Virus record (IMG/VR): IMGVR_UViG_3300020476_000011
Location: 1 to 29,915 of that record
DNA from: a virus
Reading direction: 5' to 3' (one strand)
DNA length: 29,915 nucleotides
The position numbers and the translations under genes are program-made. The notes below the pieces were generated by a model, which saw only the letters and a list, made by a program, of their open reading frames with translations, did not search any database and was not told the origin of the DNA. Shown one piece after another: positions 14,504 through 24,553 of this stretch (positions are counted from its first letter, which is position 1; each line of letters begins with the position of its first letter).

Positions 14504-14647
14504 CTACTTCCCTTGACCTCTATACTTTTTCCATGTACGTTTCTTATTTTTATTCTTAGGTCTGGACCGCACTGAATCTCCTATAGATGTTCTCTTTTTT
14601 ACACTATCTCTTTTTATAGAAGATGGAACGTGTATTCTTTTAGCCAT
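14504..14647 (-). CDS. small highly basic protein (47 aa)
   Basis: This is a 47-residue protein of which about 40 percent is Lys or Arg, beginning MAKRIHVPSSIKRDSVKK and ending KKRTWKKYRGQGK. A strong ribosome site (AAGGAG) precedes its ATG, and the start overlaps the last codons of the upstream membrane-protein gene by eight bases. It sits between the spike/tip genes and gp25. The charge suggests binding to DNA, RNA or an acidic virion surface. I do not recognise the family. The strong ribosome site and the gap-free fit between neighbours make it a convincing gene. Confidence 0.8.
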   Translation of the reverse strand: MAKRIHVPSSIKRDSVKKRTSIGDSVRSRPKNKNKKRTWKKYRGQGK

Positions 14648-14867
14648 TCTTTCTCCTTACCTTTTTCTTATTTCCATTATGGTGATGATGGTGATGATGT
14701 TCTTCCTTCTTCTCATCTTTCTTCCAAAACATTTGAATAGCACCATATATAACTAAACCTATTCCAACATACTTGGCTATTCCAAACCACACTAAAATTC
14801 CTGCTACAATCATTATTGTCCCAAGACTCACATCTCTATCTTTAACCCATTTTACAAAATCTAACAT
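14640..14867 (-). CDS. small membrane protein with a natural seven-histidine tract (75 aa)
   Basis: This 75-residue protein has two hydrophobic segments, about residues 16-30 (GTIMIVAGILVWFGI) and 33-47, separated by a short turn. A charged tail follows with seven consecutive histidines (57-63) between acidic KKDEKKEE and basic KKKVRRK stretches. AAGGAG precedes the ATG at good spacing. It lies between the PAAR tip gene and gp25. Possible roles include a holin-like or membrane-contact protein or a metal-binding tail, but none can be shown from sequence. Confidence 0.8.
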   Translation of the reverse strand: MLDFVKWVKDRDVSLGTIMIVAGILVWFGIAKYVGIGLVIYGAIQMFWKKDEKKEEHHHHHHHNGNKKKVRRKNG

Positions 14868-20197: not shown

Positions 20198-20419
20198 TTA
20201 TCTCCCGATATCTTTTATTTCACTGTTAAGTATTACTTGATAAGCGCCTTTATTATAAGCCGGCGCTATTGTATGGCTGGAGGTATAGGTCTTGGCCTTA
20301 GGGCACGCCATATTATTCCAATCATTCTTTGATGGTACATTCTTCCAAAATTTGTCATTTTCTGATTCATATCCACTTGGGTTGGGTAAACCAGCACTTG
20401 CCTTACTATACGATATCAT
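20198..20419 (-). CDS. hypothetical protein (73 aa)
   Basis: This 73-residue protein starts MISYSKASAGLPNPSGYESE and continues with a Lys/Asn/Tyr-rich, mostly polar sequence with one Cys (ACPKAKTY). Its ATG overlaps the stop of the SWIM zinc-finger gene (ATGA), and its end carries the GGGAG ribosome site for the next gene. This dense fit is the main evidence that it is translated. No domain is recognised. Confidence 0.7.
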   Translation of the reverse strand: MISYSKASAGLPNPSGYESENDKFWKNVPSKNDWNNMACPKAKTYTSSHTIAPAYNKGAYQVILNSEIKDIGR

Positions 20420-20664
20420 ACGAATGCCTTTATGTGTTTACATTGTTTGCGAAAAACAAAACCCGGACAATTACAAGTTATTCCATACGGCCTTTTGTAA
20501 ACTTTGTAAATAGCCTTACTTGAACCTGACTTGAAAGTGCCAAGCAACTTGTAAATGGGCTTGACTGGCTTAACACGCTCAGCAGCAACTAATGCTATTT
20601 GGTCTTTTGACCATTTTCGCAAATTCTTAATGTAAGGTATATCAAAGGGGTTTTCATTTTTCAT
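20416..20664 (-). CDS. SWIM-type zinc-finger protein (82 aa)
   Basis: The C-terminus holds a SWIM zinc-finger pattern, C64-x-C66-x8-C75-x-H77 (TCNCPGFVFRKQCKHI). SWIM fingers bind DNA or proteins in recombination and ATPase partners. The N-terminal half is basic (KWSKDQIALVAAERVKPVKP). It stands alone rather than being fused to a helicase or MuDR-type domain. A TTGACA-17-TAGGAT promoter ends only six bases before its ATG, so the transcript would have almost no leader. It follows the RNA candidate at 20701-20816 and begins a new transcription unit. Confidence 0.85.
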   Translation of the reverse strand: MKNENPFDIPYIKNLRKWSKDQIALVAAERVKPVKPIYKLLGTFKSGSSKAIYKVYKRPYGITCNCPGFVFRKQCKHIKAFV

Positions 20665-20670
20665 ATATCC

Positions 20671-20699
20671 ATCCTAACATGGAAAAAATTATCTGTCAA
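20671..20699 (-). promoter_or_regulatory. sigma70-type promoter for the SWIM gene
   Basis: TTGACA at 20694-20699 is followed after exactly 17 bases by TAGGAT at 20671-20676 (4 of 6 consensus). The predicted start site falls at or next to the SWIM ATG (20664), implying a leaderless or nearly leaderless mRNA. The same TTGACA-17 arrangement occurs at two other sites in this window. Confidence 0.65.
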
Positions 20700-20700
20700 G

Positions 20701-20816
20701 TAAATTAAATAAAAATGGGGGTCGGATAGATGTGCTACTGGCGGTAGCAGAGCCCTTCGGAGGAGCCTCTCCAAGCAACAGGTTGAGTCCCCAGGTTACC
20801 CTAGGGACAAACCCCC
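20701..20816 (-). ncRNA. compact multi-hairpin structured RNA candidate
   Basis: Between the CobS-like stop and the SWIM promoter, the minus strand can fold as a closed multi-branch RNA. The outer stem P1 is GGGGGUU/GACCCCC (20810-20816 with 20717-20723). Inside are a 9-bp hairpin with a GUAA (GNRA) tetraloop (20787-20808), a weaker hairpin AGAG.../...CUCU around 20750-20772, and a 6-bp hairpin UGCUAC/GUAGCA (20733-20749). P1 is followed by AUUUUUAUUU, which could act as a terminator tail. GC content is far above the flanks. I compared it by eye with the cobalamin, glutamine, SAM, c-di-GMP, TPP and HDV-like classes and found no match. It could be a stable small RNA, a 3' UTR element of the CobS-like gene, or an elaborate terminator. 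Strand is inferred from gene direction. Confidence 0.6.
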
Positions 20817-20822
20817 TTACAA

Positions 20823-22025
20823 TTAAATTAATGTATCTTCCTCAGACTCCTCATCATCATCATCTACCATCTGACCCAATTCTGAAATATCTGCTCCAGC
20901 ATCAATCTTGGTAAACAAATCAAGGAAGGATTCTTTAGTTTCAGCATCAAACCTATTTACCGTCAATTCGATTGCTTTCATTTTGTTATCAAAGATAGCA
21001 AAAGCATTAACAATGTGTACCAAACGACGAGTCGATATAATCTCATCACAACCACCTTCATAAAAGGTCTTGCGAATCACATCAGCCCATTTAACCAAAT
21101 TACTACTGAGTTCGGTTTCAACCTTATCATGTTTGGCAAATTCGTTATTAAGGATTTTCTCCTCCATCTTACCCTTAGGATAAAACTGTTCAATGGTGAC
21201 AGGAAATCTTTCCAAGAAAGCTTCATTTAATACATTAGTACCAATAAAACGTCCATCATCGGATCCCTGACCCTTTGTGTTAGCAGTAGCGATAACATTA
21301 AAGCCCTTAGCAGGATGTACCCACTTACCAATCTTCTTAATATAGATTGATGAGCCTTCAAGCACTGGCTGTAAACACATAATCTTATTTGATGCCAAAT
21401 CTATCTCATCAAGGAGAAGTAAGGCGCCACGTTTCATGGCGGTCACAACAGGACCATCATGCCACACTGTCTCACCATTCAGTAAACGAAAACCACCAAT
21501 CAAATCGTCCTCGTCAGTTTCGATGGTAATATTGGCACGGACATATTCTCGTTTAAGACGAGCACAAATTTCCTGTACCATTAAGGTCTTACCATTACCA
21601 GAGAGTCCTGTTATAAACACAGGGTAGAACAATGCTGCCTTGATAATGTCCCTTACAGTATTGAAATTGCCATAAGGAACATAACCATTATGTTTTTCTG
21701 GCACATAGCTGTCTTGATTGTCCATTACACCCAAAGCAGACGGCGCCATGGCAGTAACACTATTAGCAGCAACCTGGAACACTTTAGCAGAATCTTCTGC
21801 GCCCAAGGTAACACTCCCATACTCGCCATGTTCATTTGGCAACCAATATACGCCGCGGTCTTTTTTACAACGGCTCACTAACCAACTGGGCCAGGACAAA
21901 CTAGTATCCTTTCTGACCAAGTTTAACAATTCGGTTCTGTCCATGAATGTACGGTCTTGTCCATACATCTCACGGGCTGATGCCACAAACGCTTTACGCT
22001 TGGCATTCATCTTAATCACTTTCAT
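20823..22025 (-). CDS. cobS: CobS-like AAA+ ATPase (MoxR type)
   Basis: The start at 22025 (MKVIKMNAKRKAF) follows AGAGGA; a longer TTG-started frame is less likely. The 400-residue product is a MoxR/CobS AAA+ ATPase with Walker A GLSGNGKT near 140, Walker B ALLLLDEIDLA near 203, sensor NVIATANT, and an ERFPVTIEQF segment with a likely Arg finger. In bacteria CobS and CobT form part of cobaltochelatase, but MoxR-type ATPases in general pair with VWA proteins to remodel metal-bound or protein targets. CobS-like genes are common in marine T4-like phages, where the role is unsettled. The VWA/protease partner gene lies directly upstream. The C-terminus is very acidic (DDDDEESEEDTLI). Confidence 0.88.
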   Translation of the reverse strand: MKVIKMNAKRKAFVASAREMYGQDRTFMDRTELLNLVRKDTSLSWPSWLVSRCKKDRGVYWLPNEHGEYGSVTLGAEDSAKVFQVAANSVTAMAPSALGVMDNQDSYVPEKHNGYVPYGNFNTVRDIIKAALFYPVFITGLSGNGKTLMVQEICARLKREYVRANITIETDEDDLIGGFRLLNGETVWHDGPVVTAMKRGALLLLDEIDLASNKIMCLQPVLEGSSIYIKKIGKWVHPAKGFNVIATANTKGQGSDDGRFIGTNVLNEAFLERFPVTIEQFYPKGKMEEKILNNEFAKHDKVETELSSNLVKWADVIRKTFYEGGCDEIISTRRLVHIVNAFAIFDNKMKAIELTVNRFDAETKESFLDLFTKIDAGADISELGQMVDDDDEESEEDTLI

Positions 22026-22080
22026 TATATTAGTATCCTCTAATACTCTAATCAAAATCTAGTCTTTAAACTATACGGAT

Positions 22081-22210: not shown

Positions 22211-24553
22211 CTAACAGATAATTTCCATCATTCTATTGACTAAAACCTTCGACCCAAACTTCTGGGATTGGTGCTTACTAAACACCTTCTTAATTTTAGC
22301 AGCTGACATATCCTTATCAAACTCTAATTCACCAGCCTCGTCACTTATCTTACCAACAGGCACAATGTAGAAAGCATCATACCCCAAATACGAAGCAGTA
22401 ATAAATCCATCCTTTCGGAGACCCTTTCTACAAGCAGTGTGAACATCTTTATGGAAATAATGATGGCCTATAAATTGTTCCATCAATCCTTTTCTATAAC
22501 GATTGCCAACTATTCTCGTATCTAGAAAAATACCGACAATATTTGCACCCGATACTTCTCTAATCATATTGTGAATAACAGCCTCTAAGCCCAGCATCAA
22601 TTTTCTGTTACTATGAAGATATTTGAAAATTTCACCAGCTTCCGTTATTGTACTATATGAAGTTTTGGTCTTCCTATTCTCCACCACAACATCTCTCCAA
22701 GAAAAATTCAATAGGGGACTATCACCTTCATGGGCCCCTGTTACTCCGCGGGGTGTACTATTAGCTTCACCATCTGTCAATACAAACAGATTGACGATAT
22801 CCAAATTATAGTTTTCCTTAAACAGCGGAATAATCTTGTTTATACCCACTAAGCCTTCCAATAAAGGAGTAGATGATAAAGATAATTGATCCCAATCATA
22901 TTGGACCTGTTCCTCACCAAAGGAAAATAAATTACGACACATGGTACTAAGAGCCTTAGCATTCATATCACTACTAAACAATTCTAGCAATGCTGTATAT
23001 TCATTACCAAGTTTTAAGGTTGACCAAGTCTCCTTCATAATAGGAGATTTTAATCGGAAATAATCGTCCCTATCCTGATCCGACATACCTTTCTTAATTA
23101 GGTTTGAAGCTTTAGCTTCCTTATAACTTGCCGTAAAACCATATACTCTAAAAGGTATATTCACTTTATTACAAAACCATACCAACTGCATAATCTGTTT
23201 CAGAGTAGGAAGCATATGGTTATGCATACTGGCTGACCAATCAACCAACATTACCATACCATGACTCTTACCATCTGGGCGAATGATATTCTTTAGGAAG
23301 ATATCATCATTATACTTGTATGAAAACAATTTGTTTACATCAAGCACACCCGTCTTGGATGTGGACTCTTTACGATATTCCCGAGCTGCCTTTTTACGTT
23401 CAAATTCCTTGACCATATAGTTTACAATCTTACTAGACGCTATACGAAACTTATTATAGGACTCTGTTACATTTTGTTGATGCTCTTCATAAGACAGCTT
23501 TTTCCAACCACCAGAAACTCTTTTTTCGCTATGACGGTATCCATTAGTATGGTTTAAAGATTCATTATACAACCATTTATTGTGTGCTTTTAACTTCACA
23601 AAATCTTCTTGAATTTCCTTGTAAGGAATAATCATCTTATCCAACATCACCACAGGTAACTGACAATAGATGGCTTCCCGTGGCGCATTATATTCATTTT
23701 CATCCTGAGACTTGATAGCCTCGGTAAGAGCTTCCGAAGACTTGTCAAAATTATTTTGAGTGGTTGATTCCACATCTTTAAGATTTTCGGTCAACTCCTC
23801 ATTACTCTTTTCCGAAGCTTCATCCATACTTTGACTATTCGGCTGAGGAAGATTATTGGACTCCTCATCCATATCCTCATTATCAGTGGGAAACGGTAAC
23901 TCTACAGAATCACCATCCATATTCATATCAGACCATTCATGGTCATCACTAAACTGCGGTGATACTGATTGTTCCAGCTCTTGAGCCGATAACAGTTCCA
24001 TCAGAATACGGGTAACTCGTAATACATCCTTCCAGGTGTTACATTCACCAACCATCTTGACATATTCGTATTCCCAATCCTCAAAAGGAATATCAGCCTT
24101 TACACCTAATTTGTAATGGAGGTTAATACGATCCAACAAACCCATTTCAAGAACCTCTGCTGGGTCTTTAAAAAAGAATCTCTGCTTAACCAACTCTTGG
24201 TAACCATGGAGAAAATTAGTCAGAATACCGGGGTACTTTAACTTGATTTTCTTCTCGATACGGGCGTCCTCCACAATATTCAATATATCGGGATGATAGT
24301 CCTTATCCTTTACTGCTGTTGCCCAATCATCAGGAGCCGTCCATAAAGCATGACCGACTTCATGTCCAGTCATCATATCATGGACATCCTTGTTATCAAT
24401 CAACCATACAGGTAAAGTAAGAACCCGACTCACCACATCAAAACTGGCAGTCTTAGCCTTCACACTGTGCCGTACCGTAACATCCTCGGTAGCCAACAGC
24501 TTAGCCAATCTGCCTTCATTAATTGTTTGCGATTTCACGCGACGATTTCTCAT
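22211..24553 (-). CDS. CobT-like metalloprotease/VWA protein (780 aa)
   Basis: The N-terminus has a zinc-protease motif HEVGH (64-68, in MMTGHEVGHALW) and, 27 residues on, NIVEDARIEKK, where Glu95 may be the third metal ligand. A long acidic Asn/Glu/Ser stretch follows (about 205-285). The C-terminal half is a von Willebrand A domain with a MIDAS DxSxS (D438, S440, S442 in MLVDWSASMHN) and a later VLTDGEANS. This layout matches CobT-like and other VWA partners of MoxR ATPases. The CobS-like ATPase follows in the same direction. Together they probably form a chaperone-like or proteolytic complex acting on a host or virion target. AAGGA precedes the ATG. A foldable element lies in the leader. 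Confidence 0.85.
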   Translation of the reverse strand: MRNRRVKSQTINEGRLAKLLATEDVTVRHSVKAKTASFDVVSRVLTLPVWLIDNKDVHDMMTGHEVGHALWTAPDDWATAVKDKDYHPDILNIVEDARIEKKIKLKYPGILTNFLHGYQELVKQRFFFKDPAEVLEMGLLDRINLHYKLGVKADIPFEDWEYEYVKMVGECNTWKDVLRVTRILMELLSAQELEQSVSPQFSDDHEWSDMNMDGDSVELPFPTDNEDMDEESNNLPQPNSQSMDEASEKSNEELTENLKDVESTTQNNFDKSSEALTEAIKSQDENEYNAPREAIYCQLPVVMLDKMIIPYKEIQEDFVKLKAHNKWLYNESLNHTNGYRHSEKRVSGGWKKLSYEEHQQNVTESYNKFRIASSKIVNYMVKEFERKKAAREYRKESTSKTGVLDVNKLFSYKYNDDIFLKNIIRPDGKSHGMVMLVDWSASMHNHMLPTLKQIMQLVWFCNKVNIPFRVYGFTASYKEAKASNLIKKGMSDQDRDDYFRLKSPIMKETWSTLKLGNEYTALLELFSSDMNAKALSTMCRNLFSFGEEQVQYDWDQLSLSSTPLLEGLVGINKIIPLFKENYNLDIVNLFVLTDGEANSTPRGVTGAHEGDSPLLNFSWRDVVVENRKTKTSYSTITEAGEIFKYLHSNRKLMLGLEAVIHNMIREVSGANIVGIFLDTRIVGNRYRKGLMEQFIGHHYFHKDVHTACRKGLRKDGFITASYLGYDAFYIVPVGKISDEAGELEFDKDMSAAKIKKVFSKHQSQKFGSKVLVNRMMEIIC

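Follow-up and report, generated by a model that had tools for sequence, protein, structure and literature searches.

A conserved structured RNA in the 3' UTR after cobT-cobS in a group of marine T4-like phages

Results

Organization of the locus downstream of cobS

The window, meaning the whole 29,915-nucleotide stretch of viral DNA that was analysed, is a T4-like contig encoding baseplate wedge and hub proteins. The genes around the element studied here are all on the minus strand. A CobT/VWA-like gene designated 'peptidase' (22211-24553 (-); phrog_459, 1.1e-166), the partner of cobS, lies upstream of the gene for a CobS-like (MoxR-type) AAA+ ATPase (20823-22055 (-); AAA_5, 1.4e-21; phrog_249, 1.4e-117). 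The nearest deposited relatives of this CobS by coverage were from Pelagibacter phages (57% identity over 93%); the host is not established. The next gene downstream encodes an 82-aa SWIM zinc-finger protein (20416-20664 (-); PF04434, 5.2e-4, just above its cut-off) and is preceded by a sigma70-like promoter, TTGACA (20699)-17-TAGGAT (20671), at 20671-20699 (-). Only some 6-7 nt separate the -10 box from the start codon of that gene (window 20664-20699; also in L023 and L122), and this proximity suggests leaderless mRNAs. Elsewhere in the window, a 75-aa membrane-type protein (14640-14867 (-)) has seven consecutive histidines, a natural tract close to the C-terminus (EEHHHHHHHNGNKKK).

The interval from the cobS stop codon (20823) to the promoter is occupied by an RNA domain of 100 nt, GGGGGUUUGUCCCUAGGGUAACCUGGGGACUCAACCUGUUGCUUGGAGAGGCUCCUCCGAAGGGCUCUGCUACCGCCAGUAGCACAUCUAUCCGACCCCC, read from the minus strand (20816-20717) directly 3' of the CobS-like gene, followed by the U-rich tail AUUUUUAUUUAAUUUA (20701-20716 (-)) and then by the promoter. 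The 5' end of its closing stem, P1, is 6 nt past the stop codon, and tail and P1 together look like an intrinsic terminator. The element has a GC content of 61%, compared with 36-37% in its flanks and 38% for the window, and no other 100-nt stretch of the 29.9 kb is as GC-rich. A preliminary description had listed a 7-bp closing stem, a 9-bp GNRA hairpin and a U-rich tail, filling the gap between a stop codon and a promoter and much richer in GC than the flanks; all of these held, on the minus strand. The limits of the whole domain, P1 to P1' (20717-20816 (-)), rest on the sequence, on covariation and on a match to model R1 (E 3.9e-29), although this last value is not independent, the window sequence being one of the model's own rows.

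Relatives and covariation support for the fold

Relatives were sought by comparing the CobS protein with IMG/VR, which gave 80 loci; many of these had the element in the region 3' of the cobS stop codon, and a core pattern added more. At least 24 distinct members were recovered, the window and 23 others in IMG/VR, all of them metagenomic viral contigs; the number is a lower bound, and some members may have been missed.

The alignment of 21 distinct members gave a covariation score of 0.449 for the P1-P5 structure, against 0.173 in shuffles (none of 500 as high) and at most 0.135 in slid controls. Paired cells amounted to 95.8%, compared with 81.4 in shuffles, 17 of the 33 pairs had changed on both sides, and the eight strongest covarying column pairs all fell within the proposed structure. 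No competing or alternative (antiterminator) covarying helix was seen in this alignment, and three members withheld from the model (L103, L107 and L122) were recovered at E 1e-20 to 1e-27. With compensatory changes in several helices and independent members, the element satisfies the criterion for a new conserved structured RNA family.

The minus-strand folding energy was better than that of dinucleotide shuffles (z -3.5, 0/200; z -2.5 in a second run), whereas the plus strand was not clearly better (z -1.4). Folding z averaged about -2 over the members for the RNA strand, as against -1.2 for the opposite one, with some members near 0, so that energy alone is weak evidence, and it is covariation that is decisive for a real fold. 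An RNA read from the plus strand was ruled out by its weaker folding and by invariant U-G pairs that would read A-C there; which strand is transcribed is settled by the invariant U-G pair of P2. Two of the objections that the preliminary description had raised against itself, absence of covariation and folding no better than shuffled sequence, thus failed, the second on the RNA strand.

The closing stem P1 (5'-GGGGGUU...GACCCCC-3', 20816-20717 (-)) pairs the 5' strand GGGGGUU (20810-20816 (-)) with the 3' strand GACCCCC (20717-20723 (-)), the latter placed by the covariation alignment, with compensatory changes at 5 of the 8 aligned pairs. P2 is a 9-bp hairpin with the loop GUAA (20787-20808 (-)), with 100% of cells paired and 3 pairs changed on both sides; in most members the loop is a GNRA tetraloop (GUAA, GCAA or GUGA). 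It is followed by the unpaired conserved core J2/3, UCMACCUGAWGCUU (UCAACCUGUUGCUU in the window, 20773-20786 (-)), a joining strand that holds most of the 16 unpaired columns among the 44 invariant ones. The P3 5' strand GGAGAGG (20766-20772 (-)) pairs with the 3' strand CAUCUAUCC (20724-20732 (-)), leaving over a 2-nt bulge, and the two strands covary, CAUC occurring with GGAGA and CAUU with GGAAA. P4 (CCU, loop CCGAA, GGG; 20753-20763 (-)) was 100% paired, and 3 of its 3 pairs had changed on both sides in relatives; the nearly invariant J4/5, CUC (20750-20752 (-)), connects it to P5 (UGCUAC, CGCCA, GUAGCA; 20733-20749 (-)), in which 5 of 6 pairs had changed on both sides and whose helix length and loop differ from member to member.

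P1, P2, P4 and P5 are secure. P3 is the weakest helix, with one compensatory pair (G-C/A-U), most of its other pairs invariant and a G-A mismatch in most members. The conserved middle is a P3/P4/P5 three-way junction in which P4 has 3 bp and a 5-nt loop. One predicted middle helix is replaced by this junction: the middle hairpin drawn from a single sequence was rejected, as its column 55-66 pair does not form in 15 of 21 members and no covariation supports it. Because 16 of the 44 invariant columns are unpaired, a binding site or a tertiary core is suggested; this is a possibility inferred from sequence alone, and there are no binding data.

Some variation among members was recorded beside the fold itself. 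Two P5 loops recur in otherwise divergent members, CGCCA (the window, L105, L110, L112, L114 and L122) and UAAUUA (L017, L028, L042 and L103). There are also two linked allelic forms (alignment A2, columns 15-38, 68-69 and 168-169), one with P2 GUCCC, L4 NNGAA and 3' CGA, the other with P2 GGCUC, L4 NNAGA and 3' CUG; L021 and L042/L017 look like mosaics of the two.

Position at operon ends and relation to termination

In 19 of 23 members P1 starts 5-16 nt past the upstream stop codon, regardless of which gene precedes it, the other four being at 27, 29, 44 and 77 nt. The upstream gene was cobS in 16 of the 24 members, the cobT-like 'peptidase' gene in two (L119 and L122) and hsp20 (PF00011) in four (L103, L105, L123/L110 and L125/L112), while L114 has a small ORF there and the upstream gene of L107 is unknown. 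Whichever of cobS and cobT comes first, the element follows the second gene of the pair. The genes downstream differ between members, and in about 8 of the 24 a TTGAC-type promoter comes directly behind the element. The element thus marks operon 3' ends, and its placement in the 3' UTR is general across members. The proposal raised at the outset, a novel phage small RNA or a 3'-UTR element, is supported, a free RNA of ~105 nt being putative. A short inverted repeat rich in AT (CUUCUAAUUAUUGGAAG or CUAACC...GGUUAG) was also noticed across or after the cobS stop codon, immediately ahead of the element, in L009, L021, L011, L022 and L030, and in L023, L026 and L037.

A U-tract after P1, as judged by eye, was clear in 15 of the 24 members, borderline in two (L042 and L220) and absent in seven (L012, L029, L103, L114, L119, L123 and L125), all of which kept the fold; another hairpin, terminator-like and separate from the element, lies further downstream in L012 and L114. 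P1 with its U-tract therefore resembles a terminator in 15 of 24 members, termination itself being inferred, and a simple terminator scanner did not call the window element because of the large insert in the stem. As the fold persists in the seven members without a U-tract, the element is not merely a terminator. The terminator idea is in this way only half excluded: the inner domain is conserved independently of the terminator-like feature.

The main rival to the reading that we favour below, and a possible one, is a regulated, riboswitch-like terminator, in which a ligand or protein bound at the junction (an inference) would shift the stability of P1 and so set read-through into the downstream gene. 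In its favour are the junction, compact, made of several helices and equipped with a conserved unpaired core, and the arrangement seen in several members (e.g. L105, L042 and L024), where a start codon comes within ~10-25 nt of the U-tract with no visible promoter. Against it, the downstream genes vary and about eight members have their own promoter between element and gene; the spacing is constant to the upstream stop codon and not to the downstream gene; no covarying antiterminator helix is seen in the alignment; and in L002, described below, a bare terminator precedes the same downstream gene.

Exchange of the element between phages

Identity between L002 and L004 is 96% in the last 600 nt of cobS, and the two have the downstream gene in common, but in place of the complete element of L004 there is in L002 just the bare hairpin GGGGGGTTTTAAAACCCCCC and a U-tract, a difference that may be either a gain or a loss. 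Bare hairpins were found at the corresponding site in L022 and L030 as well. The end TTCTAATTATTGGAAG was common to loci carrying the main element (L009 and L021), another small element (L011 and L333) or a bare hairpin (L022), and a close variant of it was present in L030. Element and CobS distances were uncorrelated (Mantel r 0.05, p 0.31; 17 members, the short element limiting resolution): L017 and L028 share 97% identity in the element and 76% in cobS, while L003 and L028 share 70% and 92%, respectively. In the 96-kb record G001 the element follows cobS, and the hsp20 gene of the same record has a different structured 3' end. Taken together, these observations show that the element moves as a unit.

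Other small modules were observed at these sites. A second, smaller conserved element, GGGGAGYAAGGUCUCAA...CGACCUGCCCC, follows cobS in four contigs without the main element (L011:2590-2630, L033:1021-1061, L034:2887-2923 and L333 from position 79). On the reverse strand of L309 (~1984-2085, the hsp20 3' end of G001) a different structured stretch, UGGGGUGACAACC...GGUUGUUCACCCCA, precedes a TTGACA promoter and follows hsp20 where other phages have the main element. At the site after cobS, other phages have either a small structured element of another kind or just a bare hairpin, as if 3'-end RNA modules were swapped.

The exchange bears on a second alternative, that the element is nothing more than a PeSL-type terminator and recombination joint (PeSLs being promoter-terminator cassettes found in T4-like phages), conserved through recombination and without function as an RNA. 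The terminator-like stem, the adjoining early-type promoter, the varied downstream genes and the exchange between phages all speak for it. We nevertheless regard it as unlikely, given the compensatory changes in P1, P2, P4 and P5 and the conserved unpaired core, and also the retention of the element without a U-tract and the bare hairpins that suffice elsewhere (L002, L022 and L030).

Searches beyond the recovered members

No match to Rfam 15 was obtained at the gathering threshold in the window, and four members gave only chance-level matches at E<=10; the statement in the preliminary description that the sequence matches no familiar riboswitch or ribozyme class agrees with this, and its third objection, a match to a known terminator family, did not apply in Rfam either. 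Resemblances to words of the hammerhead, TPP and glycine-riboswitch RNAs were dropped, as no Rfam model matched. For a few of the motifs published in PMC2864571, among them Ocean-VI, which is marine only, there is no Rfam accession, and the element might still be the same as one of these unregistered motifs. It seems very unlikely that the element is a self-cleaving ribozyme trimming the 3' end of its message: the size and the junction with its conserved unpaired core are generally like those of small ribozymes, by inference only, and no Rfam ribozyme family matches.

Searches by blastn with the members and the consensus against 50,697 deposited phages returned chance matches or none, and with the covariance model the complete records of HTVC008M, Mosig, AG-345-E15, T4, Syn33 and Sf-FS3 yielded no element. 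No element was present in the CobS-bearing contigs more distant from the window, looser viral patterns gave only chance-level scores besides the known members, and the loci tested with the GNRA-stem seed TCCCTAGGGTAACC alone had no credible model match. A pattern search of bacterial genomes gave 17 hits, about the number estimated by chance, none a credible model match. The 385 sampled alphaproteobacterial genomes contained no member; because the host is unknown, this is a weak test whose empty answer shows little. ARAGORN called no tRNA or tmRNA gene in the window, and a second copy per genome was not seen in any record, the 96-kb contig included.

A further possibility, which we consider rather unlikely, is a phage small RNA that acts in trans (such as a decoy serving host takeover or counter-defence) and of which the operon terminator would merely be the 3' end, the free RNA being inferred. 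The single copy per record, the exchange independent of cobS and the two allelic P2/L4 forms with mosaics (L021 and L042) are consistent with it, while no promoter of its own was recognised, no target was found, and the alphaproteobacterial sample, weak as it is, held no member.

Discussion

The fold, the strand, the conservation, the 3'-UTR position, the exchange and the absence at a near-identical locus are shown by the data above. The reading that we prefer, at a probability of roughly 0.45, is that of an exchangeable 3'-UTR RNA module in which P1 ends transcription and the inner domain acts after termination; termination by P1, processing and a binding partner are all inferred, and there are no expression data. 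A group of marine T4-like phages carries the conserved RNA domain in the 3' UTR with which the cobT-cobS operon closes; according to this proposal P1, usually with a U-tract behind it, would be the transcription terminator. The domain inside P1, that is, the GNRA hairpin P2, the 14-nt conserved joining strand and the P3/P4/P5 three-way junction, would stay on the 3' end of the message, since it is nested inside P1, and may also be carried on a processed RNA of ~105 nt. Its conserved unpaired core would most likely bind a protein (or an RNA or a small ligand) and thereby control stability, or act in trans. The domain is swapped as a unit between phages and between terminators.

An action of the inner domain after termination is the best supported of these possibilities, because the domain is absent at L002 with the hairpin kept, is kept where there is no U-tract, and is tied to the end of the upstream gene, not to any downstream gene. 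What counts against the preferred reading is, besides the lack of a candidate partner, the start codon shortly past the U-tract, without a visible promoter, in several members, which has the look of a regulated terminator. A bolder version, against which we would lean slightly, is an undescribed class of phage regulatory RNA, an exchangeable terminator cartridge that would bind a host or phage factor through its junction after termination, for instance as a host-takeover or counter-defence RNA.

Structured RNAs are rare in bacterial and phage 3' UTRs. The RNA described here is strongly backed by covariation, has no counterpart in Rfam or in those deposited phage genomes that were searched, and shows that such RNA modules pass between uncultured marine phages irrespective of the preceding gene. 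The near-identical locus that lacks the inner domain and retains the terminator hairpin is a natural control, so the role of a structured domain inside a terminator is directly testable.

Among known systems, the PeSL cassettes of T4-like phages (Arbiol 2010 and Comeau 2014, described via PMC4503421) are similar in placing a terminator-like stem-loop and an early-type promoter between T4-like phage genes and in being linked to shuffling. PeSLs as described are, however, simple stem-loops, whereas the element encloses a covarying domain of ~90 nt that has a conserved unpaired core, and no more than about one third of its members show a promoter. The T4 species 1 and 2 stable RNAs (rnaC and rnaD) are likewise small phage RNAs of similar size and unknown function, but they lie in the tRNA cluster, and model R1 finds nothing in the T4 genome. 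The manA (RF01745), wcaG (RF01761) and PhotoRC-II (RF01717) motifs are also structured RNAs that marine T4-like phages carry and that metagenomes, for the most part, have brought to light; they are cyanophage candidates, riboswitch-like or linked to photosystem genes, in contrast to the element, which has no Rfam match.

Bacterial 3'-UTR-derived sRNAs (PMC9438474) share with the element a conserved sequence right after a stop codon that ends in an intrinsic terminator, a putative one in the case of the element. Such sRNAs are usually less structured and have a single-stranded seed; processing and pairing of the element are at most inferred. Structured-RNA control in a bacterial 3' UTR was termed highly unusual by Weinberg et al. 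2010 (PMC2864571), with the L17 downstream element (RF01708) as one candidate. This RNA and the other 3'-UTR candidates of that study resemble ours in being structured, in lying just 3' of a gene with unknown function, and in having their strand argued from G-U pairs and GNRA loops. The phage element matches the L17 downstream element in neither sequence nor structure, and differs from it in being attached to several genes and exchanged between genomes.
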